Positions 1,460 through 23,100 of a stretch of DNA of 64,000 nt are shown one piece after another. The notes under the pieces are model-generated. The model ran no database searches. It was given only the letters and a program-made list of their open reading frames with translations, and was not told where the DNA came from. The translations under genes were made by a program, and so were the position numbers. This DNA comes from Fidelibacterota bacterium. GTDB taxonomy: Bacteria; Fidelibacterota; UBA8477; JABMPR01. Positions within the stretch are counted from its first letter, which is position 1; each line of letters opens with the position of its first letter. The DNA lies in contig JAERTJ010000054.1 of assembly GCA_016844945.1 (NCBI GenBank), positions 1 to 64,000 on the forward strand. The letters run 5' to 3'.

Positions 1460-1493
1460 GGTCCCCCGACTTTTGTGTTTGATGAAAAAGGGG

Positions 1494-1859
1494 TTATAAG
1501 TTTTCTTCCAGCATTTCCTTGATACGTTCTGCGCTAATTGGCTTTACGAAATAACCAAGTGGGTTCAGTGCTTTGATCTTGGCGATAATATCGTCATCAT
1601 GATATCCCGTGAGAAAGAGAATCTTTGTCTCAACAAGTTCCTGGATTTTTGCTGCAGCCTCTATTCCGTTCAAGTCACCAGGAAGGTTCACATCCATGAG
1701 AATTACATCCGGTTTTTCACGCGTGGCTAGCTCAATTGCTCTATCTCCGCGGGTCGCGAGAGGACACACATGAAAGCCAAGCTCTTCCAGTCCCATTTTT
1801 AACGAAGAGGCAGTGATAACCTCATCCTCTACCAGTAAAACTCTCGTTTTGTCAGCCAT
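1494..1859 (-). CDS. Single-domain response regulator (CheY-like receiver)
   Basis: RVLLVEDEV..., DVILMDVNLPGDLNGIEAA..., K near FVKPIS. Confidence 0.9.
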   Translation of the reverse strand: MADKTRVLLVEDEVITASSLKMGLEELGFHVCPLATRGDRAIELATREKPDVILMDVNLPGDLNGIEAAAKIQELVETKILFLTGYHDDDIIAKIKALNPLGYFVKPISAERIKEMLEENL

Positions 1860-1933
1860 TGAACTCTCCTTGTCGCTGCATTCTTCCCATGATCTGATAT
1901 TGCAGTAAGTATATGGAACTCAAAAAATCCTCG

Positions 1934-4900
1934 TTAATCTAAGTCTATGTCAGGGATAGTTATATAATATTCAACACCACCATCAGATGTAATCACAAGC
2001 TCTCCGAACAATTGCAATTCAATGATATCTTTAACGATGCGTATCCCCAACGTGTCTGATGTCTCGATCGAAAAACCCTCATTGAAGCCAACACCATTAT
2101 CTCTAATTTTAATAACCAGCCCATTTTCACCGAAAGGGTCAGTATCAACAATTATTTGACCGTTTCTGTTTTTCGGAAAAGCGTACTTCAAGGCATTACT
2201 GACGATTTCATTAATAACCAAGCCCAGAGGAATTGCCACCTGAATTGTAATAGGAGTGGGTTGTGCGTTACAGTGAAGGTTTACATCACCCAGGGTTGTT
2301 TTATACGCAATAACAAGTCGTTCAATGAGATTTTTCAGGTATACATCCAGTTTAATCTCTGACAAGTTTTTGGACCGATACAAGAGGTCATGAACCATAC
2401 TCATGCTATAGATTCGGTTGGTCATCTCCTTGATGACTGCCTGCATTTCCTGGCTACGCGTTTTAAAGCCTTGCATTTCCAGTAGTCCGACGATGACCTG
2501 CATATTGTTTTTAGTTCGGTGATATACTTCTTTGAGCAGTACATCTTTCTCTTTAACAGATGTCTTTAGCTCCCGTTCACGCTCTTGAAGCTCACTGGTT
2601 TGTGCTTGAAGCACAGCATCTGTTTGAGCACGCACCAGTGCGCCACCGATCTGGTTGGCAAAAACCTTTAGTTTGGCAGTGTCCGCTTCAGAAAACTTAT
2701 TCACTGTATAGCTTTGCAAACTAAAGAGTCCAATCTGAACGCCTTCCCAAAAAATGGGCACAAAGACCAGCGACTTGCTCCTGCGGGTTGTATTGCCAAA
2801 CTGCTCGAGGGAAGCCTCACTTTCATTCTCAGCCCTGTTGACCAAAACAGGAGATTGGATGACAAAAACACTTTTGTGATTTAACAGGTCAAGTGATGTA
2901 ATACCCTGCTCAACCTCAACTGGCTTCTCATCACCCTCAAACGTGTCTTGAGCAAATAAGCCGAGAGCTATATTTTCTTCAAAATTGATACGATACAGGG
3001 CAAAAGCATCGTACTTGAATAAATCATAAAGCACGGAAGAGGCGATTATCCCCACTTGTCGGGGATTCAATGAAACAGTGAGCCGTCGAGCCAGTCTTCG
3101 CAAGGCACCCCTGAAAAACTCATCTTCTTTTCGGTCGCTCACATCTCTGGCAAAAAACAAGATACTTTGAATACCATTCAACTCCATGGTTCCAACTCGA
3201 ATTTCAACAGGAAATGATGAACCATCCTTGCGTGTGTGGTTGGTTTCAAGCGTGATCGACTGTTTCTCTTTCGCCAGGTGCTTTAAACGTTTTTTGGACA
3301 AGGACTTTCTTAATTCTGGACTGAACGACTTTAAGTTGAGTTTGAGAAGTTCTGCTTCACTGTAGCCAAGAGACTCCGTCGCATTCTGGTTAAACGCTAA
3401 AACCTCTCCTTTGAGTGAAACCACGAAAACCGCATCTCCGGCATTCTCAATAATACTGCGGTACTTCAACTCACTTTCCTGGAGTTCATTCTTCTTCGCT
3501 GTAAGTTCCTCATCCTTTTTGGCGCGTAAAAGGGCACTTCCAACCTGGTCAGCAAAAGTCTGAATCGTTGGAATATCCGCTTCGGTGTATTTGTTGGTGG
3601 TATAGCTCTGTACCGTTAATACCCCGATAGCCTTCCCTGTCCAGACAATGGGAGCAAACATTAGTGAGTGACTGGGTCTGTTGGATCCAAAAGGTCGAAC
3701 CGTTTTAAAGGTTTCTAATTCCTTAGGTGTTCTGTTTCTGACATGGGCAATTGAGTTGCGTTCAAAGAAATCAGGTTTCAATGCAGAAATTGAGGTGTCA
3801 GTAGGGGTAACCGGTCTGGGCTTTTTATGTCCCACAAATGTATCTTCAGTATAGATTCCTTGTATCATGTTGTTCTCGAAATCAAAATACTCAATAGAAA
3901 AAGCATCACTCTCAAAAAAATCGCGGATGGATTGGGCTGCCAGCTCTGCTACCGAGTACATATTCGAGGATTCATTCAGGTCATGTGACAACGTTCTGAG
4001 GGCCAACTCTCTTTTTTCTGACAACTTGCGGTCCGTGATGTCTCTGGCAAAACAGAGCAGGGAGGGCTTGCCTTCAATTTCTGTCACACCAACTCTTAAC
4101 TCGACAGGGAAGGACGCTCCATTTTTCCGGGTGTGGACAGACTCAATAGTCAGGAACGCCCCATCAGCTTTTAAGGATGACAACGCTTTTCGGTTGAGTT
4201 GTTCAAAAAGGTTCTGGTCAACAACATTTAGATTGAAAGCCATCAATTCTGCTTCAGTATAACCCAGTGTAGTGCAAGCATGCTCATTTGCTGTCAAAAT
4301 CTGACCTTTGATAGTTGTGACAAATACGGCATCACCGGCATTTTCAATAATTGAACGATACTTCTTCTCTTCTTTTTCCAGAGCCGTCTGGTGCGCACGG
4401 ATTTGGGCATCTTTTTGTGCTCTGACAAGCGCCCCACCGATTTGATCCGCAAAGGACTGTAGTAAAGGAAGGTCTTTTTTTTCATACTTATTGTCCGTAT
4501 AGCTTTGAACAGAGACAACTCCCACAGTAGTACCTTCCCTGCGGAGTGGAACGAACAACAAAGAATGGCTGGGTCGTGAATCACCAAAAGGAACCGTGTC
4601 TTTATATTCTTCCAGCTGGGCTGGTGTGCGGTTCAAACATTGGGCTTTGAAGCGCGTGTTGTATCGAGTGGTTGTGGAAAACGGTATTTCATTGACAGGT
4701 ACTGGTTGTGGATCAGACTGTCCTTCAAAAGTATCTTCAGAATAAATGCCCAGAATTAGACCTCTATCATGGTCATAGAGCTCAATGGTAATGGCATCGC
4801 TTTCAAAAACGGAACGTAAGGTGTTTGCTGATACGGCTCCAACCTCATTCAGACCGGTCGCTTTCGTCAGCGAATATGCTAGATCCTGGAGCGCTTGCTG

Positions 4901-7642
4901 TCTTTTTTCTGCCATTCGCTGATCAGTGACATCTTGAAGTGAAGTAAGAAAAGCCTTCATTTTTTTGTTCTTATCAAGGTGGGGTATGTATCGAAGGTCA
5001 AAAAGACGGTTTTCCCCAGATTTGTCAGGGGCTTGCCAGGCAAGCTGTTGTTCCTCGCCAAGAGAGAGCTTTTTTGAAGACTGTTTGAACAAGCGATAGC
5101 CTGCAGGAGACAGGATATCTTTCATTGGTTGGCCGATTAAATCTTCCTTCTCTTTTCCATACCACCGGGCATACGCTTTGTTCACGTATAAATAATTCTG
5201 ATTCATGTCGGAGTAAGAGAAGAATCCAGGTATAGTATCGATAATTAACTCAAGAAGTTCTTTGTTTTCCGCGAGCTCTTTTCTGGCAGCCTCCCTTTCT
5301 GTGATATTTTCCATCTGGACCATGTATGCCAGGAGCTCGTTGTTGTCATCCATAACAGGGATTAAAATCACCCAGAAATCAAGCTCCCCTTCAGTATTGG
5401 AACTATAGTGTTGGAGGTAACCACAGGCTTCACCCTTTTGGAGGCGCGGTAGATATTGTTTGGCTGCTTCAAGGGCATCGGCAGGAGCCAGCTCTTTAAG
5501 GCTCATTCCTACCAGCTTTTCACTTGTGTGTCCCAGCCAATCGGCAGTTGCATGGTTTACATAGAGAACCGATAAGTCTAAATCGATTAAAAAAATAAAA
5601 TTAGTGACATGCCTGGTGACCAACTCGAGCTGCTGTCGACTTTCTTCCACAAGCTGTCTGGCCATGACGCGATCATGAATATCGTTGAAAGAGACCATGA
5701 GTAGCATTTTTCCGTCCTGGTGAACCGGAAACCCCCTGGCTTCCACCCAACGCTCCTCACCAGTGATCGTCAAATATATTTGTTCGCGAACCGGTGTTGG
5801 CCGATCCGTTTTTATGACTTGAATCATTCTATCTTTTGTTGATTGCACAAAATCTTTGTGCACAAATGAAAACAAATCATGACCCAAAACATCTTCCAGA
5901 CTATCTACACCGGCAAATTCCAGCGCTGCCTGGTTGGCGTCAATTAAAGTTCCGGCATCATGTAAAATCATTGGCGTGGGAGAAAAATCGAACGCCCGTC
6001 GGTAGCGTTGTTCGCTTATAGAAAGCTCTTTTTGGACCTTTAGTTCATCCGTAATATCTCGAAAAGAGGTCACGACCAGCAGGCGACCATCAAGGGTGAT
6101 GGGTGCAGCCATCACTTCTATATCCCTTACCTCACCCGTTGAGATAATTAGTTTTTGGTGAGAAAGGTCATTGGGTTGGCGTGATGAAAAGAGTTCCTGG
6201 AGTCTTGATTTTGAATCTTCATAAGAATCAGGGTGAATGACATCAGAAATAGGAGAACCAATGTATTGATCGAGATTATCAGTCTTAAAAAAGTCGATAG
6301 CTGCCTGGTTGGCTGCTAATATGATCTGACCATCATGTACAACGATAGGGTCGGGTGAATTTTTAAACAAGGTTTGATAGCGTTCTTCAGCAGCCCTTAA
6401 ATCAGTATAGTCAATGATGGTGCCCACAAATCCAGCAACGTTACCATGTGCATCATGATAACGAGCCCTGCGGAACTCAACCTGTCTTAACTCACCTGAT
6501 GCATTTGTTATTTCACGTGAGTATATCGGGCTTTCATTCTTTTTTAAAAGCGTCTGGTCAGAATGTTCAATATCGAATGCTTTTTTATTCGACCAAACCT
6601 CAGAAGTCGTTTTCCCAAGCATTTCGTCTCGAGTTTTCCCAAAAAACTCAAGATAGGCATCATTAAGCATGATGTAATGACCCCTGTTGTTTTTTGCATA
6701 AAGAGGGGCAGGTATAGCGTCAAAAAGCGCTGAGATTTGATTTTTTTGATCAAGAAGTTGTTCATTGGTTGCTGTCCGCTCGGTCAAATCACGAATTATG
6801 CTGACCAAGGTTCCATCAGACAGTTTTTTTGAATTCATTTCAATAGGAATACGGCGCCCATCTTTTGTAATGAAAACGCGTTCAGCGATGATGGTCTGAC
6901 CTTCTTGAATAAGATCATATCTTAAGGGTTTTCTCGCGAGAATCTCAGGATCAAAAAGGTCAGAAAAATTCATGGATAGCAACTCTTCGTTACTATACCC
7001 CAGCAAGCGTGAGGCCGTCCGGTTTGCCTGAATGAGGTTGCCCTGGGCAGTACCTCGGAGAATGATGTCACCAGCCTGGTCTATAAGCTCTCTATAGCCA
7101 CGCTCGCTATCTTCAAGCGCCTTTTCTTTTTCTTTTAAGGTGTCATGCAAGCGTGCATGGAGTAACGCCAGGGATAATCGAGCAGACAACAAGGTGAGGA
7201 TATCCTGGTGATCCGATGAAATACCATCAATATCTCGTGAATCTATGTTCAACGAGCCAACCACATCATCCCCAACAATTAGCGGGATGATAAAAAATGA
7301 TTTTACTCCTGCTCCCAGAAGAAGTTGTTCTATAGGGTTTAGCGCGGTGATTATTTCAAGGTTTGATACGTATTGTGGCTCGGTGTTTGAGGTAAGTATT
7401 ACTCGTTGGGGTACTGTGATGGGAATACGATCGCCCTGAGATAAACCAAGTACTGAAGTATCGTTGGTGTAGATATCCAGGAAGGATTTTTTGGTATTTA
7501 TCAGGGAAATGGAAACACGGTCAAAATCGAAATTAGATTTGACAAAAGATATAGCATTGTCCGTGACGCGATGTGTGTCGGGCCAGGAAATAGCCTGATC
7601 AAAGGCGATGAGTGTTTGAACGTGGTTCCCAAGTTCTGACAT
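1934..7642 (-). CDS. Giant multi-PAS/GAF sensor histidine kinase with HisKA_2-type dimerisation domain
   Basis: Many PAS motifs, repeated GAF domains, LLKEVYHRTKNNMQVIVGLLEMQ H-box, HATPase at C-terminus. Confidence 0.9.
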   Translation of the reverse strand: MSELGNHVQTLIAFDQAISWPDTHRVTDNAISFVKSNFDFDRVSISLINTKKSFLDIYTNDTSVLGLSQGDRIPITVPQRVILTSNTEPQYVSNLEIITALNPIEQLLLGAGVKSFFIIPLIVGDDVVGSLNIDSRDIDGISSDHQDILTLLSARLSLALLHARLHDTLKEKEKALEDSERGYRELIDQAGDIILRGTAQGNLIQANRTASRLLGYSNEELLSMNFSDLFDPEILARKPLRYDLIQEGQTIIAERVFITKDGRRIPIEMNSKKLSDGTLVSIIRDLTERTATNEQLLDQKNQISALFDAIPAPLYAKNNRGHYIMLNDAYLEFFGKTRDEMLGKTTSEVWSNKKAFDIEHSDQTLLKKNESPIYSREITNASGELRQVEFRRARYHDAHGNVAGFVGTIIDYTDLRAAEERYQTLFKNSPDPIVVHDGQIILAANQAAIDFFKTDNLDQYIGSPISDVIHPDSYEDSKSRLQELFSSRQPNDLSHQKLIISTGEVRDIEVMAAPITLDGRLLVVTSFRDITDELKVQKELSISEQRYRRAFDFSPTPMILHDAGTLIDANQAALEFAGVDSLEDVLGHDLFSFVHKDFVQSTKDRMIQVIKTDRPTPVREQIYLTITGEERWVEARGFPVHQDGKMLLMVSFNDIHDRVMARQLVEESRQQLELVTRHVTNFIFLIDLDLSVLYVNHATADWLGHTSEKLVGMSLKELAPADALEAAKQYLPRLQKGEACGYLQHYSSNTEGELDFWVILIPVMDDNNELLAYMVQMENITEREAARKELAENKELLELIIDTIPGFFSYSDMNQNYLYVNKAYARWYGKEKEDLIGQPMKDILSPAGYRLFKQSSKKLSLGEEQQLAWQAPDKSGENRLFDLRYIPHLDKNKKMKAFLTSLQDVTDQRMAEKRQQALQDLAYSLTKATGLNEVGAVSANTLRSVFESDAITIELYDHDRGLILGIYSEDTFEGQSDPQPVPVNEIPFSTTTRYNTRFKAQCLNRTPAQLEEYKDTVPFGDSRPSHSLLFVPLRREGTTVGVVSVQSYTDNKYEKKDLPLLQSFADQIGGALVRAQKDAQIRAHQTALEKEEKKYRSIIENAGDAVFVTTIKGQILTANEHACTTLGYTEAELMAFNLNVVDQNLFEQLNRKALSSLKADGAFLTIESVHTRKNGASFPVELRVGVTEIEGKPSLLCFARDITDRKLSEKRELALRTLSHDLNESSNMYSVAELAAQSIRDFFESDAFSIEYFDFENNMIQGIYTEDTFVGHKKPRPVTPTDTSISALKPDFFERNSIAHVRNRTPKELETFKTVRPFGSNRPSHSLMFAPIVWTGKAIGVLTVQSYTTNKYTEADIPTIQTFADQVGSALLRAKKDEELTAKKNELQESELKYRSIIENAGDAVFVVSLKGEVLAFNQNATESLGYSEAELLKLNLKSFSPELRKSLSKKRLKHLAKEKQSITLETNHTRKDGSSFPVEIRVGTMELNGIQSILFFARDVSDRKEDEFFRGALRRLARRLTVSLNPRQVGIIASSVLYDLFKYDAFALYRINFEENIALGLFAQDTFEGDEKPVEVEQGITSLDLLNHKSVFVIQSPVLVNRAENESEASLEQFGNTTRRSKSLVFVPIFWEGVQIGLFSLQSYTVNKFSEADTAKLKVFANQIGGALVRAQTDAVLQAQTSELQERERELKTSVKEKDVLLKEVYHRTKNNMQVIVGLLEMQGFKTRSQEMQAVIKEMTNRIYSMSMVHDLLYRSKNLSEIKLDVYLKNLIERLVIAYKTTLGDVNLHCNAQPTPITIQVAIPLGLVINEIVSNALKYAFPKNRNGQIIVDTDPFGENGLVIKIRDNGVGFNEGFSIETSDTLGIRIVKDIIELQLFGELVITSDGGVEYYITIPDIDLD

Positions 7643-7701
7643 TTAAGTTTCTCCTGAGCAAAAACCAAAAGGTTGACACACAGATAAAATCACAGGCGGT
7701 A

Positions 7702-7740
7702 GAATAAAAAAAGGGTGTCAATTACACAGCTTTTTTATTC
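7702..7740. terminator. Bidirectional terminator-like hairpin
   Basis: GAATAAAAAA...TTTTTTATTC perfect 10-bp arms plus internal GTGT/ACAC, downstream of the MCP gene. Confidence 0.5.
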
Positions 7741-7913
7741 ATGACCACGACTATTGTTTTTATGCTAACTACAGTGGCGTTTGATCAGGGGTGGGTGATT
7801 CTGAAACAAAAAACCAGGACACAACACCTTTTCAGTGAAAGCCATATAGCACTCATGTATTCTGGAGTGCCGTTCTTCACACACGATCCAGTATATTGAT
7901 TGCGATGCAATAG

Positions 7914-9572
7914 TTATACGGTGAATTTACCGACCATGTCATTCAAGCGGTCAGCCATTTCTTTCAGTCTGTCCACACCACCCATAATACCCAGGGTTCC
8001 CTGGCTTACCTGACTACTCACATCAAGTGACTGGGAAGAGTTATCTGTGGCAATATTTACAGCATTGCTTACTTCAGTAATCTGAGAATTGATGTTGGAA
8101 ATTCCCCCAGAGGTACGCGTGATGTTTCCAGCAATATCTCTGGTTGAGATACTTTGCTCTTCAATGGCGGATGCCATGGTGGTAACAGCCTTGGTGATTT
8201 CGGAGATAATGTCATTGATGCCGTTGATGTCACCTACGGTCACATTAATGGATGTGATAATATCCTGAATCAGTGCTTCAATATTTGAGGCAGCAGTAGT
8301 GCTCTGTTTGGCTAACTCTTTCACTTCACCGGCTACAACTGAAAAGCCCTTCCCGGCTTCGCCAGCCCTGGCAGCCTCAATCGTGGCGTTCAAGGCAAGA
8401 AGTTTGGTTTGATCAGAAATTTCATTAATGGTATCAACAATCTGGACAATGGACTTTGCTTTTTTGTCAAAATCGCTGACCCGTAGTACAGCGGCTTCTA
8501 CTTTTTCAGTAGCTCCAGAGGACGATTCACGCATTCTTTCTGAGGATTGTGCGATTTCATTGATGGTGGCGCTCATCTCTTCAGCGGCAGCGGCTACATT
8601 GTTCAGATTGCTGGATGCTGTGTCAATCTCTGTGCTGACAGAACCCATAGCGTTATTGGCTGAGCCCGCTGTTTCTGCAGTCCCTTGGGCTTTTGCTTTG
8701 AGAACATCAGTTTGGGTGTTCATCTCCTCAGCAGTTTTCACTAGAGAGATGGCTTCTGTACCAAGGATGGTAGCATCCTCGGAGATGCTTTTGACAATAA
8801 GCTGAACTTTTTCGATAAACACGTTAAACCAAAGAGCAAGATCTTTGGTTTCGTCTTCACTATCAACTTCAATTCTTGCGGTCAGGTCACCATCCCCTTC
8901 TGCAATATCCTTTAGGGCAGAGATGATTTTTTCGATAACTCCCACCACAATTTTTGTCTGGTTGTACCCCATGTAAAGCGACCCAATAGAGACACCCAGG
9001 AGAATGATAAGCGCAAATGCAATCGCGCCCATAAGATACATAGAGCGTGTAAACTTTGTATGAACAGCAGCGTTGAGCCGCTTGATGTTTTCTTTACCGA
9101 GCGCTTCCATTTTTTCAAAGGTTTCATTCATTGTCATGGCTTTTTCCATAACCTCATCAGTAAACTCGCCAGAAATCATAGCCGTGGTCACGCTGGTAGC
9201 CAGTGTATAGTACTCATCCAAAAGACCTCGAGCAGTCAGGAAGGACTCAGTATTATCAATATTCAGCTTAATCATATGGCTGATCATCTGGAGTAGGGTA
9301 TCATAGGTAGCGGTCGCCTGCTCAAGAAGAGCATCATCACCCAGCGTGGTAGCATCGATAAAGACTCGCTTTAGTTCAACCTGGAGCGATTCATACTTGT
9401 TCATTGTGAGTTGAGCCGGGTTGTAAATAGTTTCGATCTGTTTAAGGTTTGAGTTATTGATCAATCCCAATACAATTGCAGTAAGTAATATGACAAACAC
9501 GACAATGGTCGAGATAGCAGGTACAAAATTGAATTTATATATTAGTTTTTTCTTTTTGTCTTCGGAGATCAT
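7914..9572 (-). CDS. Methyl-accepting chemotaxis protein
   Basis: Two TM segments, HAMP-like region, hairpin signature [41 protein letters not shown]. Confidence 0.95.
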
Positions 9573-9879
9573 TTGAGTGGTCCTTTATAAATATCCCCCT
9601 TACAAGCTCAAGACTTACAGATACTAATTGTTTAAGACGGTATGAAAAGGTGTGGTTTGCCTGGGCTATAAAAAGCGAAGGACACCTGCTTGCCAAAAAG
9701 AAACAATGCGATTGACAATATATACGCCTCACATATGTTATCGATAGTAGGGACATGATCTTTAGGAAATACATGGTTTTTACCCCTTGACGGATGAACT
9801 GCTTTCGATGAGTTGATTTATTTGTAAAATTCACTAGTATTAGAGCCAAAGAGTGAATGAAGACAAGAAGGAATAGAAA

Positions 9880-10725
9880 ATGAGAAAAAGGGGTGCATTA
9901 ATTACTGTTGTTGTGGGGCTTGCAAGCGTCTCAATGGCTGCTGACAGTGTGAATACCGCCTGGGAAAAATCAATCGTGGGTGGATTAAATATGACACAAA
10001 CCGGGTTTGATAATTGGTCTGCTGGAGGTGAAAATGCATTTGCCTGGCAAATGAACTTGAATTTCAAGTTTACAAGAGATCAGGAAAAGACAAATTGGTC
10101 AAACTCAGGAAAGGTTGTGTACGGCGCTACAAAAATTGGTGATGGGGATATGCGGAAGTCAGTAGATGAAGTAAAAGTCGAAAGTGTTTTGACCTATAAG
10201 CTGGGAAGCAAGATCAACCCCTATGCCGCGCTTAACGGGGAGACTCAGGTGGAAGCGGGCTATGATTATTCAACAATTCCTGAAACACAGATATCAGCTC
10301 TTATGGACCCTGGATATTTCAGGGAAAGCTTTGGTGCCGGTTTTGACATCAAGGACGGTGTTTCAACCCGCCTGGGATTATCCCTTAAGCAAACAGTAAC
10401 AACAGACTACCCCCAGCCCTATGCCGATGATGTAGAAACTTTAGACGTTATTGAAACAACACGCAGTGAGGTCGGTCTAGAGTCTGTCAGTGATTTTTCT
10501 ATTCCCGTCTCCAAGACCTCATTGTTCACGTCAAAGTTGGAATTGTTCTCTGCTCTAAAGGCTGCAGATGAAACAGATGTAAACTGGGACAACACACTCT
10601 CCGTCAAAGTTTCAGAGTATATAAATGTGAATGTAAATGTGAAGTTAGTTTATGACAAGGATATTTCTGTAAAGCGACAATTAAAACAGTCCATGGCATT
10701 AGGTGTGAACTACACGTTTATTTAA
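9880..10725 (+). CDS. DUF3078-type outer membrane beta-barrel protein
   Basis: Signal peptide; WEKSIVGGLNMTQTGFDNWSAGGENAFAWQMNLN; beta-rich with C-terminal aromatic. Confidence 0.7.
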   Translation: MRKRGALITVVVGLASVSMAADSVNTAWEKSIVGGLNMTQTGFDNWSAGGENAFAWQMNLNFKFTRDQEKTNWSNSGKVVYGATKIGDGDMRKSVDEVKVESVLTYKLGSKINPYAALNGETQVEAGYDYSTIPETQISALMDPGYFRESFGAGFDIKDGVSTRLGLSLKQTVTTDYPQPYADDVETLDVIETTRSEVGLESVSDFSIPVSKTSLFTSKLELFSALKAADETDVNWDNTLSVKVSEYINVNVNVKLVYDKDISVKRQLKQSMALGVNYTFI

Positions 10726-10743
10726 AGCCAGTAAGTCACCATT

Positions 10744-10773
10744 AAAAAGGTCTGTTTTATGTAGCCTTTTTTT
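10744..10773 (+). terminator. Rho-independent terminator-like hairpin after DUF3078 gene
   Basis: AAAAAGG ... CCTTTTTTT. Confidence 0.5.
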
Positions 10774-10809
10774 GTTTGCTTTCCTGTTGTTTCTCGATTA
10801 AAATAGATC

Positions 10810-10928
10810 TGTCGAGAGGCAACCATCTTCAAACAAACTATCAGAAGAAAAATCAGGACGTGTAGCTACAACCAGTTATGGTTGAAGGGTATAGTTTTAT
10901 GTTTATCATAAACTAGCAGCTCTCGACA
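10810..10928 (+). ncRNA. Candidate structured leader RNA (multibranch)
   Basis: Closing helix TGTCGAGAG/CTCTCGACA encloses hairpins TCTTC/GAAGA, CAACCA-GTTA-TGGTTG and TAGTTT(T)ATG/CATAAACTA. Confidence 0.4.
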
Positions 10929-10975
10929 AAAAGACTTCTTTAAACAAAAAGGAGTAATCAATCAAAAAGCGAACA

Positions 10976-11010
10976 GGGTTAGAGTTTTATCTAAATGATA
11001 TTGCTAACCC
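10976..11010 (+). promoter_or_regulatory. Leader hairpin just upstream of the small peptide RBS
   Basis: GGGTTAG ... CTAACCC perfect 7-bp arms with internal ATC/GAT. Confidence 0.4.
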
Positions 11011-11028
11011 AAAAAGAAAGGAACGATT

Positions 11029-11259
11029 ATGAGTCGTTTTGGCAGAATCCTTTTAAGTGGGCTGGTGGCGCTTTTGATGGTAGGTATGGTTTCAGCAAGT
11101 GAGATAAGTGCGCCGGTTGGAGGGAGTGTCGATGTGCTTCCGATTGGTGGTCATATAGGCACATGGGTCGAGGGTGTTTGTATAGATACCAGCGATGAAG
11201 TGTGTTTCAAGTTATGGATTAGTATAGATGTTGGCTGGCTAAAAGCCTTGCTTTTCTAG
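11029..11259 (+). CDS. Small secreted two-cysteine peptide (76 aa precursor)
   Basis: ATG with upstream AAGAAAGGAA RBS; signal peptide MSRFGRILLSGLVALLMVGMVSA; mature part contains VCIDTSDEVCF. Confidence 0.6.
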   Translation: MSRFGRILLSGLVALLMVGMVSASEISAPVGGSVDVLPIGGHIGTWVEGVCIDTSDEVCFKLWISIDVGWLKALLF

Positions 11260-11275
11260 GCTGTTAAAGACTAAG

Positions 11276-11295
11276 GGGCGGTCGAAAGGCCGCCC
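11276..11295 (+). promoter_or_regulatory. Intercistronic stem-loop with GAAA tetraloop
   Basis: GGGCGGTC-GAAA-GGCCGCCC, 8-bp stem including one G-U, no following U-tract. Confidence 0.6.
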
Positions 11296-11316
11296 TGGAA
11301 ACATTTGGGGTGGAAA

Positions 11317-12489
11317 ATGATAACACGACTTATTCTGGTTTGTACGCTTGTTCATTGTTTGGTAGCTGCTACAGAGGTTATCAAAATATCAGGACCCATA
11401 AGCAAACACACACAAACATATATGTGGCCCGCTTTGGCAAATGGTGGTGTTACGGTTAGTGGAAATATGGTTTATATACCAGATGGCAATAAAATTTATA
11501 TACAATCACGCCTTGTTCATGACGAGAAGAAATATAGAGATGTTGACGTTGATGGACACAACTACTTCACCATTAGAAAATTGCTAATAAATAAAACTAA
11601 CATGTATGTAGATATTCTATATACCGATGGCATGATATATCTCTATAAAATACAAGGCGGGACATCAAAGAACATTGGGCTTATTTCAAAACATGCTGTT
11701 AATGACAGAATGATACAGTACTCTGATGGTAAAGTTATATCAACTGGTATTTATAGGCCAAACTATGCAAAAGTGTTAAATAAATATGATGATGATTCCA
11801 CCCCGGGATCAACACCACAGGAAGAACGCAAGTATAAAGAGCTTTACGAAAATAGTAGAGCCTTCTCATTGGCGATCTATAGTCAGGATTTGGAACTTAT
11901 TGACTCGGCCAATTTTATTGATCGAACTGGAGAGAATGCCCAGGCTTTTGATAGGTTGTTTGTAAGGCATCCTGTAGATCTAACAGATCAGGATAAAATG
12001 TTTATAATTGACAATATGAATGGATATGAAGTGAAAATATTTGATAAGAATGTTAAGCATATACGAACTTTCCCCATACACAATAAATCATTCAAGCCAA
12101 TACCAGCATACCTAACGCTAAAACAGGCACAGAAGTTACGCTCAGATAATGGTAAGTATTCAGTTGCTTATGCCCTATATGTTAAAGGTGATAAAGTCAT
12201 CACTTCCTTCTGTCAGTCCTATGTGGGCAGGGACTTACCAAAACCACCCTATCACTATGATGTTTCCACGCTTGAGGGTAAACCGCTCGGATCTGGAGAG
12301 ATTAATTACCCGATTATTAGTGAGGATGATGAAGAAAAAATTTTCCTCCTGGTTGTTATGGATGGTGGCTGGTTGGGCGAAAACCAATACTATTTAGTGG
12401 GAATGACGATTGACGAGCTTATGGCTGGTATGGGAGCACCTGCATCCATAGAACATGCAATAGATAAATACTTGGAAGGTTCACGGTGA
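11317..12489 (+). CDS. Secreted protein, possible 6-bladed beta-propeller-like
   Basis: ORF track start 11305 is TTG; ATG at 11317 has GGGG/TGG upstream. Signal peptide then blade-like repeats, e.g. MFIIDNMNGYEVKIFDKNVKHIRTFPI. Confidence 0.55.
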   Translation: MITRLILVCTLVHCLVAATEVIKISGPISKHTQTYMWPALANGGVTVSGNMVYIPDGNKIYIQSRLVHDEKKYRDVDVDGHNYFTIRKLLINKTNMYVDILYTDGMIYLYKIQGGTSKNIGLISKHAVNDRMIQYSDGKVISTGIYRPNYAKVLNKYDDDSTPGSTPQEERKYKELYENSRAFSLAIYSQDLELIDSANFIDRTGENAQAFDRLFVRHPVDLTDQDKMFIIDNMNGYEVKIFDKNVKHIRTFPIHNKSFKPIPAYLTLKQAQKLRSDNGKYSVAYALYVKGDKVITSFCQSYVGRDLPKPPYHYDVSTLEGKPLGSGEINYPIISEDDEEKIFLLVVMDGGWLGENQYYLVGMTIDELMAGMGAPASIEHAIDKYLEGSR

Positions 12490-12908
12490 AACAAAAGCTG
12501 TTTATGCTGATTCGTCTGTTTGTGTCTATCATATTTATACTGATGGCCATGGCTAAGCTTTATTATCTCACAACCCACGGACTCTCGGACTATAAAGCTG
12601 TGGTGCATGCTGCGAGCTTGCCAGGGGTCTTTGCTTATTATGGTGTTGTTGCCATGGCGATAGAGTTTTATGTCGCGGGTGGTGTCTGGGTAGAGCGTCT
12701 ATTTAAAAGTTCAGTCTATATAACCATGGTGTTGGTTACCCTTGGTACTATCCTGAGTATATACTTTGTCTTGTTCAAGGTAAGCAACGAATGTGGTTGC
12801 GGTTTGTTGGGTGATAGCGAAGGCGGTCTGCTGGTTCAAAAAATACTGATCATCATCTTGTTGGCTCTCTTGTGGAGGGGTCGAGAATATTACTTTTTGA
12901 GAAATTAG
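12486..12908 (+). CDS. MauE/DoxX-like integral membrane protein
   Basis: Four TM segments and NECGCGLLGD motif; GTG start overlaps the upstream TGA. Confidence 0.65.
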   Translation: MKQKLFMLIRLFVSIIFILMAMAKLYYLTTHGLSDYKAVVHAASLPGVFAYYGVVAMAIEFYVAGGVWVERLFKSSVYITMVLVTLGTILSIYFVLFKVSNECGCGLLGDSEGGLLVQKILIIILLALLWRGREYYFLRN

Positions 12909-13024
12909 CCCTTTAGATAGTTAAGATGCAGTGTAATGCATGTATATAACATGGATAGCAAACTGTATTGTTGGGGTGTATGGCTGTGGGCTCTTTTTGG
13001 TGGAGAAGGGTTACATGTCGAAAA

Positions 13025-13065
13025 TGTCTCGGAAAGGCTTGCCAAAAGGAAGCCCATCCGAGACA
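13025..13065 (-). terminator. Hairpin downstream of the M16 gene
   Basis: TGTCTCGG/CCGAGACA outer arms and GGCTT/AAGCC inner arms; on the minus strand followed by TTTTC. Confidence 0.55.
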
Positions 13066-13073
13066 ATCAAGGC

Positions 13074-16043
13074 CTAGTCCAGTGTGATCAGTTTATCAAA
13101 CAGGTCAGCGTTTTGTTTGAGCTTGTCCTCATTCCCATAGACACAAATCGGACTGCCTTTTAAGATATCTGAAATAAACCCCTCGTAACTTTTAACATCC
13201 TCAACCGTTGTTGATAAAACTGCATCACGATCACTTTGAAGTTGTTCTTTGGATGACTTTGAGAAGTATCGACCAACTGCAGTGTTGCCTCTTTGAGATG
13301 GCGTTTGTGGTCTATCCATTCCGGCGATCGTTCCTATGATAAAGCGTGTCATCTCAGTTTCATCTATATCAAGAGTTTTTAAAAACCCTGGAGTGTTGGC
13401 ATAGTTTTCCAGCGTGCTTGAAAGATTAGGATCTCGATAAGATCCAAAATACACCTGACCCGTGGGAGAAAACCTGGCAAACCCACCATAGGCACCACCA
13501 ATGACTCTGACCTGGTTTTTCAGCCATTCCCGGGAAACAATTTGGTTGAGAACCCTGATCTTTCCATCCCAACGATAACCAAGATCTGTAAAATCTCTAC
13601 CTTGCAGCACGTATTGAACTTTGGATGCTGCCAGAAGACCTTCATTACGTGATGAAGACTTTAACGTCCATGTCATATAAGTGGGCTTCTCTCGCATTAG
13701 TTGCCGGCCAAAACCTCGAAGCTCTTTTCTAAACAGTTTTAGGGCATCCTCAGAACTTGTCGTAGCTGCAAATAAATTGTTCTTCGTAAAAAGTTTATCT
13801 GATACCAACTGCAACTCATTAACCAGCTTATCCTTGTTCTCGTCAAAATTTTCTACCAGTTGAGTGATAAACCAATAATACTCAAGACCGCCAGTCAGCT
13901 CATCAAACATTCCAGTTCGTGTCGTATACGAGAAAAGCCTGGTTCTGGCATATCCCAGACCATCACGCTTTACAGAAGCACTAAGACGTGAATGATGTCG
14001 TGTTAACACATCTTTGATCCTATCAACATCATCAAGCTGTGATTTGGTCAGAATTTCGAGGGCAAGATCAAATGCTTTTCCCTGTTCTTTTGAAAGTGTT
14101 TTGGTTGAAAGTACAAATTTTGGAACAAGCCTATCATCATTTCGCTCTTCCAGGTAACGTGTCAAATAGGTGCTGAAGCCACCAAGTTCCTTATCCAGGG
14201 TATTGTCGAGATCACCGAAACTATAGCTCTCAGTGCCTATAGAACCCAACAATACGGCAAGGAGTTCTGCATAGGGCAACTGGTATTCTTCAAGCACCCG
14301 TAGATCAAAAAAGAATTTATTGTAACTGATATCGTTGGTAAATACATCGTAGTGCAAATAGGGAATCCATGAAACCCTGGCTTTCTCAGCAATAAACCAG
14401 TCAGCCTCTGGCTCAATATCCTTGAGATCGAGAAGGGGGATACTGGCTAAGGCCTCAGGTGTGTCTTCAGACTTCTGATATTCAACTAACAAATCAGTAT
14501 GTTCAACCAGGTCTGCAACTTCTTGAGTTGACAGGCCTGACTTAAAAGCTTCAAGCTCTGCCGCTGTTTTTGTGTCATTCTCTCCTTCCAGACCAGGCTT
14601 GGGGTTAAGCGTGAAAAGAAGTGCATGGGTGTTGTTCAAAAAATACTGATCAACAAGTTTTTCAAGATAACCGGTTTTTATCTCTGACTTAAGCTCACCA
14701 AGGGGTTTTTCATAGGCTAGCCCGCTGAAGGGTTCACCCCCCCAGAACCAACTCCCCAGTGCCTTTTGGTTGTAGTACAAGCCCTTCTGTGGCGTATTTC
14801 CCTCTCTCAGGCTGAACTCCATCCTGTTGAGGATTCCAGCCACAGCAGACTGGTCAACGCCTTCCCGGGCAGTCTTTTCAAGCGTTTCCAGGACCACAGA
14901 CTTAAACCGCCCTGATTCATCGCTATTGGCGTTCTGGACTCTGATATGAAAGACATTTTGCTTCAAGTCATCCACCCAGGCACTTATGTCTTTTCCAATA
15001 CCAGCTTCCTGTAGAGCCAGGCGGACCGGGGCAGATTCGTTGGTAAAAAGAACCCGAGTCAACACCCTTAAACCCATGACCAGTTTGGCGTCACTACTTG
15101 ATCCACTGACAAAGGAAAGCGAAAGGTAGGACTCCCCCTCAGTGTCCGATGATTCAGTCGCCGAGTACACCCCGGAAGCAGATCGCATGGTATCAAACGG
15201 AGTCTGTAGCGGAATATCCACGACTTGTTCTGAACGCGTGTATTTAGACAAATAGTTTTCATCGATGAACTTCAGTTCGGAAGCAAGATCACCGTCTCCA
15301 TACAGAAAGATATAGGAGTTAGAGGGGTGGTAATATTTTTCGTGAAAGGCTATAAAAGCATCATAGCTCAGGGTGGGGATGGCTGCAGGGTATCCTCCGG
15401 ACGAGAACCGATACGGTGTATCTGGAAAAAGCTGCTTGTCCACGAGGTAACCCCATTCTCGGGTTGGGCTGGAATAGGCGCCTTTCATTTCATTATAGAC
15501 GACACCCTTGTAGGTGACAGAAGAGTCTGGATGTTCAAGATCGTGGTGCCAGCCTTCCTGTTCAAGGATTTTTGGGTCTTTGTAGATCAAAGGATTAAAA
15601 ACGGCATCAAGATAGATATGCATGAGGGTGCGAAAATCCTTGTTATTCATACTTGAGACAGGATACAGCGTGATGTCAGGACCCGTCATTGCATTCAGAA
15701 AGGTGTTGAGAGAGCCTTTTGCGAGAATATCAAAAGGACTCTTAACAGGAAAGTTTGTTGAACCATTTAAAACAGCGTGTTCTAAGATATGAGGTGTTCC
15801 TGCATCAGATTCAGTAACAGTTTTGAAGGTAATGCAGAAGGTTTTATTTAAATCATCATTTGAGATTTTGAACAAGCGTGCTCCGGAAAGCTCATGCTCA
15901 AACAGATAACAATCAGCATCCACTTCTTTGACAAAGCGTTTCTCGATAAGTTTAAAGCCGGACATAAGTTCTCCTGTTGATGGTTGTGCACATAGTGTTA
16001 ATGCCAGGAATAAGGACAGGGTCAATAGAATTGATTTACGCAT
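13074..16043 (-). CDS. M16C (PreP/presequence-protease-like) zinc metallopeptidase
   Basis: HILEHAVLNGSTNFPVKSPFDILAKGSLNTFLNAMTGPD; ~990 aa; signal peptide. Confidence 0.9.
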   Translation of the reverse strand: MRKSILLTLSLFLALTLCAQPSTGELMSGFKLIEKRFVKEVDADCYLFEHELSGARLFKISNDDLNKTFCITFKTVTESDAGTPHILEHAVLNGSTNFPVKSPFDILAKGSLNTFLNAMTGPDITLYPVSSMNNKDFRTLMHIYLDAVFNPLIYKDPKILEQEGWHHDLEHPDSSVTYKGVVYNEMKGAYSSPTREWGYLVDKQLFPDTPYRFSSGGYPAAIPTLSYDAFIAFHEKYYHPSNSYIFLYGDGDLASELKFIDENYLSKYTRSEQVVDIPLQTPFDTMRSASGVYSATESSDTEGESYLSLSFVSGSSSDAKLVMGLRVLTRVLFTNESAPVRLALQEAGIGKDISAWVDDLKQNVFHIRVQNANSDESGRFKSVVLETLEKTAREGVDQSAVAGILNRMEFSLREGNTPQKGLYYNQKALGSWFWGGEPFSGLAYEKPLGELKSEIKTGYLEKLVDQYFLNNTHALLFTLNPKPGLEGENDTKTAAELEAFKSGLSTQEVADLVEHTDLLVEYQKSEDTPEALASIPLLDLKDIEPEADWFIAEKARVSWIPYLHYDVFTNDISYNKFFFDLRVLEEYQLPYAELLAVLLGSIGTESYSFGDLDNTLDKELGGFSTYLTRYLEERNDDRLVPKFVLSTKTLSKEQGKAFDLALEILTKSQLDDVDRIKDVLTRHHSRLSASVKRDGLGYARTRLFSYTTRTGMFDELTGGLEYYWFITQLVENFDENKDKLVNELQLVSDKLFTKNNLFAATTSSEDALKLFRKELRGFGRQLMREKPTYMTWTLKSSSRNEGLLAASKVQYVLQGRDFTDLGYRWDGKIRVLNQIVSREWLKNQVRVIGGAYGGFARFSPTGQVYFGSYRDPNLSSTLENYANTPGFLKTLDIDETEMTRFIIGTIAGMDRPQTPSQRGNTAVGRYFSKSSKEQLQSDRDAVLSTTVEDVKSYEGFISDILKGSPICVYGNEDKLKQNADLFDKLITLD

Positions 16044-17199: not shown

Positions 17200-20100
17200 T
17201 TAGTCAACGACCACCCTGAAGGTAATGGTTCCATTTCCACCAGCAACCAGAGTGCCTTCTTTCTGAAATTTTATATCAGTAACAGGAGCAGCCTGGGAGG
17301 TATCATAGGAGCCAGCATTGTCGTGACTGTAGCTGATTGTCATACCAACCCCAGAAGCTGAGTTTTCCACATAGGTTGAATTGTCTGGAATTGATTGATC
17401 CACGACCACGCTGGTGGCTAATCCAGCACCGACATTTGAATAAACAACTGTATAAGTCAATGTGTCACCAGGTGCTGCAACAGTCAGGTCAACGGATTCA
17501 ACCAACGTTAATACAGGTGGGGGTGTTGGGAGCCCTTCTCCCTGTATGGCAAAGGTATACGGGTTTTCATCAGAGTCATCAGATGCGATGCTAACAAGCG
17601 CGGTTCTCATGCCCTCTTCAGAAGGAACAAAGCGAATGGTAAAACCTGTTGTTCCTCCACCGGCGGCTATGGTTGCTGAAGGAGTCTGGCTCAAGGTAAA
17701 ATCACTTGAATTGGTACCGCTAATTGTGATATATGGTTCTGGATTTGTCAGGGTTAAAATCGCGCTCCCAGGATTTTCTATGATATAACTAACATGTGAA
17801 GTGGAGTCTAAAATGGTGGCTGTAAAGAGGGTACTGTCAGTCAAGCCGGGAGTAAGATCACCACTCACAATAGATACACCATTTCCAGTTACATTTATCT
17901 CACTGCTTGCGACTCCTGTCCCCTGGATATTAAAGTTAAAGGGGTTCTCATCTTCATCATCACTGGCAATGCTAATGCTGGCAGACCTTAACCCAACGGC
18001 AGTTGGATCGAAAGTAACTTCGAAAGCCAATGAATCACCAGCCGGAACGGTTGATGCTGCTGGCTGCGAATTGATTAAAAAGTCTCCAGCATGCGCTCCT
18101 GTTAAGATGACAAAAGGATTGCCTGTTAAAGTGAGGTCTCCACTACCGGTGTTAATAATTTTAAAGGTATTAACCTGGGTGTCAGACAGAATGTCTTTAC
18201 TGCCAAACTCAGTACTATCTGAAACGCTTGGTGTTAGGTCTCCATCTGCAATAAGTTGTCCGTTGGCTGCGACTGTAATTTCTGGCGAAGCCAGCCCAAT
18301 ACCCTGAATAGCGAAAGTGAAGGGGTTTTCATCCAGGTCATTATTTGCAATTGAAATTGTAGCACTTCTCAGACCTTCTGCTTCGGGGTTAAAAGTGATG
18401 GTAAATGTGGTCGAGTTGTTTGTAGCAACAGGAGAAGTTGGCGCACTGGTTACGCTAAAATCAGCTGCGTGATCACCAGAAATAACGATAAAATCAGGTG
18501 CATCAGATAAGGTTAAATTTGCATTTCCAGAGTTCAAAATGGAAAAGATCTGCGCCTGGCTTCCAGTAAGAATATCTTCAGATCCAAAATCGGTATAATT
18601 GGAGGCTGTCGGTGTTGTGCTGCCATCTACAATTATCTGACTATTGCCTTCCACCTGAATTTCTGATGCCAGCCCAAATCCTCTCACATCAAAAGTGTAA
18701 GGTCCTTCATCGGGATCTGTATTGGCAATGCTTAATGTGGCTGTACGCAGACCCTCTGCGGCAGGTGAAAATGTAATTTCAAAAGCAGTACTATCACCTG
18801 AACTGACCAGAGTGGCTGGGGCTGTGGTAAGAACAAACTCAGACGCATGGGTTCCGGAAACGACTACTTTTGGTGTTCCATTAAGGGTTAAATCAGTTCC
18901 CACGCCATTGTGAACCATAAAGATGCGTGCCAGAGAACCTGTTCCTGCATCAACATCTCCAAAGTCTGTATAGTCCAGTGTTTGTGGAGAAGTATCACCG
19001 CTGGGGATGCTGCGATAGTTTCCAGTCACATCGATTTCAGGAACGGATAGCTGATAAACACCAACATCTACGGTACTGTTATAGACACCGGTACTCAAGG
19101 TGAAAACATCTGATTGTCCATTGCCTGCATCGACATCACTGTCCAGGGCATCATCAGCACCCTGATTCTGCAGCGAAAAGGCATATCCAGCAGGCAGGTT
19201 TGTAAAGTACAATCTATAGGTTGCCGCACTAAGCCCCGTGAAAATGTATTTTCCTGATGCGTCAGTTGTGGTTGTACCCATGCTGACACCTGCGGGATCA
19301 GTCTTGATTTCCACATTAATACCGGGAACGCCATTTTCACCTGGATCTTGAATACCATCTTCATCAATATCCAACCAGACAAAATCACCAACACCTGTAG
19401 CTTTGAACCCAGCATCGATACTGCTGTTCACTACACCAGGTGTGATTTCAATATTGTCTGTTTTAAGTGTTGCAGGGTCAGGGTCACTATCCAATCCATC
19501 ATTGGTGCCAGCAGTTTTTGTGGTAAGCGAAAAACCAGCTGGTGGTGTCGTAAAGGTCAGGTAATACTCACCAGCACCCAGGCTACCAAAACTATAAAGC
19601 CCATCAGCAGCTGTTACTGCAGTACCAACAGGAGTACCATCAGAGACATAGAGGGAAACGGTTACGCCAGCCAGACCAGACTCACCAGCGTCCTGGATGC
19701 CATCACCATCGCTGTCCAACCAGACCAGGTCACCAATGCTGCCTGAAGTTGGCAGAGGTGAAGCAGCCACAGCACAGGAGGCTCCATCGCTATTTGATGT
19801 TGCCAGTGACTGTCCAACATAAATACTCTCAACCGGGTTGGTGGAAACATTCACCTTGTACATGCGTCCACTGGTGTTGTTGGCAACATAGACATAGCCA
19901 TCACTGGCGGTCCATGTGGCACCAAAAGCGTTGCCGTTTGTACCAGCAATCAAATCATCACTCAATTTACCCTGCACAGCTTCAGTACTGACACTGTTGG
20001 ATCCCGGGTTATAAATGTAGAGGGTAGATCCGTTCACACCATAAAAGAGACCATCGCTACTTCTGAAAGCCATATCTTGCGCCAGGAAGTCTGCACCCCC

Positions 20101-23100
20101 AGGATTGAGGTTTGAAGTGACCGTACCTGTGCTGGCATCAAAACGACTCAGATTATCACCGGCAGAATTCCAGAAATATAAGTCACCCTGGTCGTCAAAA
20201 TCGGCTCGTGTAGAAGCATAAGGAATTGAGATGGACGTCAGGACAGTAACATCACCTGAAGCGTCAATCCGTACCAGTCTGTCGCCTGCCACTGTAAGGT
20301 CTTGCTCAAAACCATAGATGAGACCGTCTTGTTGATTATAACCAATACCATCAATGGTGTAACCTGCTGATGCAACGGTGGTGTATGTGTAGGGACTGGT
20401 TGATGCATCCAGATAGGCAATCGTGCCGCTGGACCCATAGACCTGATAAAAATTGGGAGCACAAGCCAGGGGCGAGCCAGCGCCAGTTCCATAACCCTGT
20501 ACGTTAAACGTGTAGGTGGGTGTGTCTGGATCATTGCTGGTTACTGAAATGGTAGCCGTTCTGGCACCAACCACAAGGGGATCAAATTCAATAACAAAAC
20601 TGGTATTTCCGCCTACAGCAACACTGCTGGCGGGGTAACTGGAGACATAGAAATCACTACTGTTGGATCCAGAGATGGCAACCTTTGATCCTGTAAATGT
20701 TAGAGGTGCGCTACCATTATTGTTAATTGTATAGGTGACCATTCTATTGCCAAGGCTTACATCAACGTCACCAAAGTAGGTGCTGTCAAGTGTGCTTGGA
20801 GAGGTATCACCTGTCGAAATGGTGGAGCCATTCCCGGAAATGCTGATTTCAGAGGCTGTAGTTCCTGTGCCCTGGATTGCAAAGGTATAAGGGCTTTCTG
20901 TTAAATCACTATTATCAATGCTGACAGTTGCAGTTCGTAAACCTGTTCCAGACGGATCAAACGTGATTGTGAATGCTACAGTACTGGCTGGTGCAACCAG
21001 AGAGGCTGGTACAGCTGTAACGGTAAAGTCACCAGCATTTGCTCCAGAGATTTCAATTATTGGGTTGTCACCCAGGACCAGATCATCACTACCAATGTTA
21101 TGCACGACAAATTCCTGTGCCTCAGTAAAACCACCAACAACTTCCACACTTCCAAAATCAGTCCCATCATTGACTGCTGGTGTGCCATCGCCATCGGGAA
21201 TATCGATCATATTACCCTGGATGTTGATTTCTGATTGGGATATAGGGTCGTAGATACCGGTTCCCTGGATTTTAAAGGTGTAAGGGTTCTCATCAGAGTC
21301 ATCATTTTGAATGCTGATATAGGCTTGACGTGTTCCCAGGGCTGCAGGTGTGAAAGTGACTTCAAAACTTGTAGTTGCACTATCAATGGCAATGACGTTT
21401 GAAGGGCTTGATGTAATGGTAAACTCAGAAGCATTAACACCGGTGAGGTCTACATAGGGTGGAGGACCGGTGAGGTTCAGAGTAGCATAACCAATATTGC
21501 GAATAACAAACTGAGCTGTAGCAGGAATACCTGATATTTCAGCAGTTCCCAGCTCTGTGTTGTCAGATTCCATTGGGAAGCTATCGCCTGATTCAATGAC
21601 AATCCCATTACCCAGAACTTCAATCTCTTCATCCAGTGTTGATGTACCGAGGCCAGTTACAGCAAACGTAAATGGGTTTTCATCGGAATCATCATTTGAA
21701 ATGCTGATGGTTGCCTGGCGATTTCCAGTGGTTGTTGGATCAAACCCTACTTGAAAGGTGATTGACCCAGCAGGTGTAACTGTCGATCCAGTTGGTTGCT
21801 GGGTGACAATAAAGTCTCCTGCATTGGAACCAGAAATTTGGACAACAGGCATACCTGTCAGCGAAAGGTCACCAGAGCCAGGGTTTAAAATGGTAAAAGT
21901 ATGAACAATGGGTGTTTCAAAAATATCTCGACTACCAAAATCAGTATCATCTGCAATTGAGGGTGAGGTATCGCCATCGGAAATATCCACCAGGTTTCCC
22001 TGAACTGCAATTTCTGGAACAGTGGTTCCCGTCCCCTGAATATCAAAAGTAAAGGGGTCTTCATCCGTATCTGAGTTGGCTATTGAAAGCGTTGCTGTTC
22101 TAACTCCAGCTGCACTGGGATCAAAATGAATGGTGAATGTGGTGGAACCACTGGGAGTAATTGGAGTCACAGGGTTTACAGTAATTGAAAAATCACTGGC
22201 ATGTGTTCCACTGATTGCAATATAGGGTGATGATCCAGTCAGACTCAGGTTTGCCCCACCTGTATTTTGAATAGTAAAGACTGTACTGATTGAACCTGTA
22301 TCAATGTCATGGTTCCCAAAATCAGTTGCGTTGGTCGTCGTCGGAGTTGTGCTTCCTGAAACGATGTTTTGACCATTACCCTGTAAGGTAATCTCAGGAG
22401 CCAGCCCTGTTCCCTGGATATCAAAATCATAGGGGTTTTCATCGGAGTCATTGTTTGAAATACTTACGATGGCACTTCTAAGACCATCACCAGAAGGATC
22501 AAATGTAATCTGGAACGTGGTTGAGTTACCCGAAGTAATTGTGGCAGCAGGTGATGCTGTTACTGAAAAATCAGATGCATTTACTCCTGAGATGGAAACG
22601 CTCGGCGATCCGTTTAATGTGAGGTCAGCACCGGTTACGTTTTCAACGGTAAATGTGTGTACAATGGTACCTGATGCAGCTGAAATGGACCCAAAGTCTG
22701 TATCGTCAGAAATAGCGGGAGAAGTATCACCATCAGGAATCGTATTTCCGTTTCCAGTAATGTTGATTTCAGGCTCGGTTTGTTGATAGAGACCAGCGTC
22801 AACAGTACCGTTAAAATTTCCCGGTGTCAGCGTAAACTGATCTGAAAGACCCGTACTTGTATTCACATCACTATCGATATCGTCGGTGGCACCATTTTGA
22901 GTGGTAAAGATATAGCCACCAGGTAGGTTACTGACTCTAATCTGATAGGTAGTAGCTGAGACATTGGTAAAGAAATAAAATCCATTGGCATCTGAAGTTG
23001 TAGTTGCAACCGTTGAACCATTGCTGACCAGAACCAACTCAACGGTTACACCGGGTATACCGACTTCACCGAAATCCTGGTCACCATTATTGTTGACATC

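Follow-up and report, generated by a model that had tools for sequence, protein, structure and literature searches.

A conserved three-gene cassette at a fixed locus

Three genes follow one another on the forward strand of the window, the 64,000-nt stretch of DNA analysed here (Table 1). They encode an exported peptide with two cysteines, a secreted protein with a predicted β-propeller fold, and a four-transmembrane protein of the MauE family. The initial annotation had proposed these open reading frames as a candidate peptide-maturation cassette, and all three, of 76, 394 and 140 aa, are present where it placed them. Neighbourhood comparison confirmed that homologous trios exist in related genomes: no intact locus of the genus departs from the order peptide, propeller, MauE, which the distant relatives G021 and G028 share. 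Within the genus, which belongs to the uncultured ocean bacteria Candidatus Neomarinimicrobiota (Marinimicrobia), a leader precedes the trio at each intact locus.

A search of relatives located the propeller protein in 18 of the 245 genomes of the phylum set, 16 of the 18 coming from the same genus, at approximately 26-40% identity. It is mostly present in single copy, and some loci are divided over several contigs. Three members of the genus lack the cassette, and both flanking genes are missing there too. These flanks, an outer-membrane β-barrel protein (OMP) and a convergent PreP-like peptidase, lie outside the variable cassette. The peptidase is missing from this position in loci L025 and L033, where a 117-145 aa open reading frame, presumably MmcQ/YjbR-like, takes its place 3′ of the MauE gene next to the cassette; the right flank is thus not constant in the divergent loci.

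The cassette lacks a dedicated exporter and any known immunity gene; it also has no receptor or sensor kinase and no transcription factor or other dedicated regulator. A RiPP-type modifying enzyme acting on the precursor is not recognisable in it either, MauE being only a candidate redox partner. PADLOC returned no profile match to anti-phage defence systems, and a plasmid search using the propeller as query gave no match. In G021 the locus (L037, G021:C228, 8253-13220) is a tandem duplication: the peptide-propeller pair occurs twice, MauE once, and one further propeller, of DUF5128/TolB-like type, is present. Elsewhere in the window, the reverse strand encodes a multi-domain sensor of 1902 aa that contains many PAS/GAF-like repeats (1934-7642) and a secreted 3243-aa protein with many repeat units (HASDF.VT..P motif) and SdrD-like segments (17200-26931).

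Table 1. Features of the cassette and its surroundings (window coordinates).
Feature	Position	Strand	Details
DUF3078/DUF481 outer-membrane β-barrel protein (OMP)	9880..10725	+	upstream flank
Sigma-70-like promoter, predicted	10776..10804	+	TTGCTT-17-TAAAAT; from conservation and position in an alignment of 13 loci
Leader, 5′ part	10810..10955	+	P1 stem (10810-10818 with 10920-10928), inner hairpins, hairpin H4 (~10934-10955); covariation
Hairpin H5	10976..11010	+	GGGTTAG...CTAACCC; compensatory changes
Ribosome-site hairpin	11003..11067	+	Shine-Dalgarno GAAAGGA with TCCTTTT of codons 7-9; start codon in loop
Exported peptide precursor, 76 aa	11029..11259	+	ATG start; signal peptide codons 1-24, then variable mature part
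Constant coding stretch, 35 nt	11047..11081	+	within signal-peptide codons; near-exact pattern, no mismatch, in 14 genomes of the genus
Intercistronic hairpin	11277..11297	+	between peptide stop and propeller start
Secreted β-propeller protein, 390 aa	11317..12489	+	ATG start; alternative TTG 11305 gives 394 aa
MauE-family four-transmembrane protein, 140 aa	12486..12908	+	GTG start; GTGA overlap with propeller stop
M16C (PreP-like) peptidase	13074..16043	-	downstream flank, convergent

The three proteins

The peptide precursor was described in the initial annotation as carrying a signal peptide and exactly two cysteines. This is correct, and Cys51 and Cys59 are, together with Gly44, the residues of the mature part that are invariant across homologues. 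The signal peptide is near-invariant (mean identity 83%) vs 36% in the mature part. The same annotation had made its reading depend on conservation of this open reading frame, and the frame is conserved: the mature part of the closest pair combines normal synonymous divergence with strong purifying selection (dN 0.056, dS 0.527, dN/dS ~0.11), which supports its translation. None of the 16 peptides matched Pfam, and the window peptide matched nothing in Pfam, NCBIfam or the PDB. Its AlphaFold (AF2) model is of low confidence (pLDDT 65 overall), with residues 41-60 at 78-82 and strands around both cysteines; a Cys51-Cys59 disulfide is predicted, the model being too weak to fix its geometry. A cofactor peptide of the TTQ/CTQ type was considered and rejected because tryptophan is not invariant, the Trp of the GTW motif becoming Tyr, Phe or Ser in relatives.

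Between the peptide stop and the propeller start, a strong hairpin is found in 15 of 15 loci, inside a gap of 43-92 nt. Its stem sequences are unrelated between loci, and the hairpin covaries fully. The coding strand carries no T run here, which makes 3′-end protection or processing more likely than termination.

For the middle gene, the secreted frame was borne out; its start is more likely ATG 11317, which suits the homologues better than TTG 11305. The AlphaFold (AF2) model of the resulting 390-aa protein (pLDDT 84.3, pTM 0.85) has β-propellers as best Foldseek matches (E 7.8e-8), in agreement with the propeller-like nature suggested earlier; a β-propeller fold is therefore predicted. The protein has no sequence relative in Pfam, NCBIfam or the PDB and matches neither the DUF5128 nor the TolB_like profile, and the structural search retrieved no Mau or quinoprotein homologue. 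In one relative (L022, G016:C191, 672-1835) the propeller frame contains one TGA and one TAA, with peptide and MauE intact.

The 140-aa protein scores 33.8 bits against the MauE profile PF07291 (gathering cut-off 27, E 4.8e-8), and 16 of 17 homologues also reach E<=0.01. The MauE assignment, four transmembrane segments, NECGCG motif and overlapping GTG start proposed in the initial annotation all stand. Homologues keep the four hydrophobic segments and the CxC (Cys103, Cys105), which lies in the TM3-TM4 loop and would be periplasmic, given an N-terminus inside. Across the cassette, the peptide pair and this CxC are the only conserved cysteines; none is invariant in the propeller. Components of a methylamine dehydrogenase context (MauA, MauB, MauD) are not among the identified flanking genes. 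A second, more canonical MauE is encoded elsewhere in the genome of the window (G000:C86:63839-64213, E 1.4e-27).

A structured leader RNA extends into the coding sequence

Approximately 220 nt, from the promoter to the start codon, are conserved in an alignment of 13 loci. The predicted promoter, too weak to be listed by a consensus scan, has the counterpart TTGCAT-17-TAACAT in relatives, and from its position the RNA would start near 10810. The window leader (10795-11035) is more stable than shuffled sequences (MFE z -3.55), and Alifold energies exceed those of column shuffles (z -7.9 for the whole UTR). Both arms of P1 are altered in L022, L025, L033 and L036, and they nevertheless pair in 13 of 13 loci; in H4, three pairs are changed on both sides. 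Over H4 and H5 together, 10 cells are changed on both sides, vs 4.1 in shuffles, and the covariation score is 0.175 vs 0.118, values reached by none of 500 shuffles in either case. The leader thus shows what characterises regulatory leader RNAs in general, a structure that compensatory changes have conserved ahead of a gene. A structured leader had been noted before; its structure is upheld by fold stability and covariation, and its extent needs correction, since structure continues into the coding sequence.

This continuation is the ribosome-site hairpin, which folds in each of the 13 sequences and has 95% of its cells paired. These cells are nearly invariant, so that the hairpin lacks covariation support. 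The 3′ arm of H5 doubles as its 5′ arm, making the two structures mutually exclusive, and the alternative between them suggests the usual layout of a translational switch. A scan of the window against Rfam yielded nothing at E<=1; in six related loci there were only sub-threshold, chance-level matches, mostly outside the leader or at a terminator downstream of OMP. Each genome has a single leader, at this locus only. A multi-copy leader/signal module, as in an array or phase-variation model, was rejected on this ground.

Constraint at the nucleotide level was also evident within the signal-peptide codons. The 35-nt stretch shows three base differences in all over 14 genomes, occurs once in each, and its pattern is absent from all others in the 245-genome phylum set. 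Over the conserved signal columns synonymous identity is 0.887; same-amino-acid columns of OMP and PreP averaged 0.36 and never exceeded 0.57 in 20,000 draws. Leader and signal-peptide codons are therefore constrained as nucleotide sequence; coding sequences of signal peptides are rarely kept constant at this level. Together, the recurrence of the trio, the low dN/dS of the mature peptide and the covariation of the leader show that the observation is not due to chance.

The variable genes diverge together and are exchanged as a unit

Downstream of a constant module (promoter region, leader and signal-peptide codons) lies a variable one, consisting of the mature peptide, the propeller and MauE. 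Mean identities are 71% for OMP, 80% for PreP, 47% for MauE, 38% for the propeller and 36% for the mature peptide. Distances of mature peptide and propeller are correlated (r=0.78), also when controlled for OMP (partial r=0.775, Mantel p<2e-4); for OMP vs PreP the correlation is 0.94. The peptide-propeller correlation could stem from linkage and joint transfer, not physical contact.

Locus L023 is a mosaic. Both its flanks cluster with L026-L030, and its peptide and propeller cluster with L021. Compared with L026, leader and flanks are mostly 75-93% identical at the nucleotide level; the coding sequence starts with 45 nt at 100% and remains at 86-93% until about codon 25. Across the cassette, identity then lies mostly at 36-62%; a few 100-nt bins exceed this, among them a MauE stretch at 70%. 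In PreP it is back to 77-86%. L023 thus carries a foreign cassette, with the left breakpoint just past the signal-peptide codons. The reverse pattern was observed for L026 vs L028, where the cassette is more alike than the flanks (dS 0.48 and 0.53 vs 1.74 in OMP): the two share a recently transferred cassette. The mosaic and its reverse indicate that the cassette moves as a unit: mature peptide, propeller and MauE diverge together and pass together between species.

Comparison with known systems

Bacteroidetes have NVEALA-type exported peptides arranged with six-bladed propellers, and the initial annotation had drawn this parallel. It holds in part. The precursor is likewise short and exported, with a constant N-terminal part, a variable Cys-containing end and a propeller neighbour (families PF14055, PF17170, PF15869), and the distant cassettes of G021 and G028 hold an additional, true DUF5128/TolB-like six-bladed propeller (PF17170/PF15869 profile matches). 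It fails for the window itself, whose peptide is not matched by PF14055 (a profile that matched 0 of 120 genomes) and whose propeller is not matched by the profile of either propeller family. The constant RNA-level module and the single-copy allele exchange also set this cassette apart. A literature search on NVEALA, DUF5128 and Marinimicrobia peptides found nothing directly relevant.

The ComQXPA pherotype locus of Bacillus has constant flanks around a linked hypervariable, exchangeable block of peptide and partner. The cassette shares the linked hypervariable block, the constant flanks and the exchange as a unit, but contains no isoprenyl transferase, kinase or response regulator and belongs to another phylum with other chemistry. 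Methylamine-utilisation MauE proteins (PF07291) resemble the window protein in their four transmembrane segments, profile score over the cut-off, CxC, and the proximity of a propeller and an exported small protein containing cysteines; the locus here lacks MauD and methylamine dehydrogenase subunits. In decRiPPter, mauE was found in candidate peptide clusters, near short precursor genes as here, and a disulfide role for MauE is cited there as speculation (PMC7794033). Those clusters come from Streptomyces and have other precursors, and the portions of that paper considered here name no propeller partner and describe no leader RNA.

A model for the cassette and its alternatives

An allelic exported-peptide cassette under RNA control at a fixed locus is well supported by these results. 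In the mechanism that we favour, the peptide would be exported via Sec and its two cysteines oxidised to a disulfide, passing electrons to the periplasmic CxC of MauE. The main argument for such a dedicated relation is that conserved cysteines are confined to the peptide pair and the CxC. The propeller would be the cognate periplasmic partner, whether receptor, chaperone or self-protection, fitted to its own peptide allele. Translation may be controlled by the leader through exposure or hiding of the ribosome site, and the intercistronic stem may keep peptide output higher than that of its partners. The putative role suggested is recognition between cells, by a signal, kin marker or antagonistic peptide. 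Both the MauE-dependent disulfide and the recognition of peptide by propeller are plausible, and the candidate roles are signalling, antagonism, and a surface or periplasmic complex. For the explanation as a whole, combining the fixed-locus allelic cassette with oxidation, cognate binding, leader control and a recognition role, we consider the balance even. Counting against it are the lack of an exporter, receptor kinase or immunity gene in the cassette, the weak peptide model, the speculative status of a disulfide role for MauE, the ribosome-site hairpin that does not covary, the possibility that linkage alone explains the peptide-propeller correlation, and the stop codons in the G016 propeller. 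More tentatively, and with rather less than even confidence, the locus may represent a new class of polymorphic peptide-recognition loci in Marinimicrobia. Here a switch-like leader and the signal codons would act together as a constant module for expression and export. Different alleles of mature peptide, propeller and MauE would be recombined onto it, giving each lineage one matched peptide-partner specificity.

The same features can be read in other ways. A fixed locus in nearly all members of the genus, constant flanks and control region, a conserved structured leader, and a hypervariable linked peptide and partner that are jointly transferred would suit a pheromone (pherotype) locus evolving like ComQXPA or agr, in which the peptide would act as signal, the propeller would bind or mature it, and the alleles would define communication groups. 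We regard this as unlikely, though worth serious consideration: the cassette has no sensor kinase or transcription factor, and a mature peptide of ~50 residues is large for such signals. Allelic linkage to a fast-evolving partner, horizontal transfer and a small exported peptide of disulfide type are also compatible with a bacteriocin or another antagonistic peptide that acts independently of contact, from which the propeller, alone or with MauE, would protect the producer. That a dedicated exporter is lacking, that the cassette is near-universal in the genus at one locus and not patchy, and that it resembles no known system make this reading rather improbable.

In methylamine dehydrogenase, which needs MauE, a small subunit rich in disulfides is paired with a propeller subunit, and the cassette contains the same three kinds of part. 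The peptide might accordingly be the small subunit of a similar periplasmic or surface complex, its variation reflecting escape from phage or predators. This is equally doubtful, as there is no MauD, cofactor residues are not conserved (the Trp of GTW included), the peptide has two cysteines only, and the structural matches of the propeller did not identify it as homologous to Mau proteins or quinoproteins. Finally, leader and signal codons might have no RNA function and be kept identical by gene conversion, or because they anchor the recombination that exchanges cassettes. The left breakpoint of the L023 mosaic does fall at the end of the conserved block. However, a single copy per genome leaves no donor, which disfavours gene conversion as the source of the identical 35 nt, and in L022, L025, L033 and L036 the leader has diverged with compensatory pairing kept and the 35 coding nucleotides essentially unchanged. 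Of the readings considered we find this one very unlikely.

Were the favoured mechanism true, an abundant uncultured marine phylum would possess a recognition system that is based on peptides and composed of parts without classification, namely a peptide and a propeller of unassigned families and a leader RNA absent from Rfam. It would also offer a concrete case in which to examine whether MauE-type proteins serve a secreted peptide as its own disulfide partners, and a natural set of matched alleles for peptide-propeller specificity.

Peptide arrays elsewhere in the phylum

Arrays of different short peptides, again with an N-terminal part that is constant and a Cys-containing end that varies, are present in G036, G091 and another G028 locus, where they adjoin DUF5128/TolB-like propellers, M23 peptidases and small proteins anchored in the membrane. 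By profile, these peptides are not homologous to the window peptide. When plasmids were searched with a distant DUF5128 propeller, all matches were at chance level. The arrays suggest that the phylum repeatedly combines an exported peptide with a propeller. Such a combination also occurs in Bacteroidetes.

The G036 array (L119, G036:C1:2460000-2476000, 1386-12220) consists of at least 4 tandem units encoding a constant-leader peptide (MKTKWWKKACIGLFVVAMLMNLTVYFDSAG...) with a variable two-Cys end, and its units also hold a TolB_like propeller, a 189-aa protein and an M23-peptidase protein. Two more short peptides (SVCPGGQDMCATVTVS, SFCPGGGIKCASINFT) adjoin a DUF5128 propeller in G028 (L121, G028:C9, 1813-4084), a genome that also has an A1-type cassette. 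Similar units in G091 (L118, G091:C6:10000-25270, 3469-15005) contain Cys-rich peptides, DUF5128 propellers, an M23 peptidase and a thioredoxin-like/DsbD_TM membrane protein.
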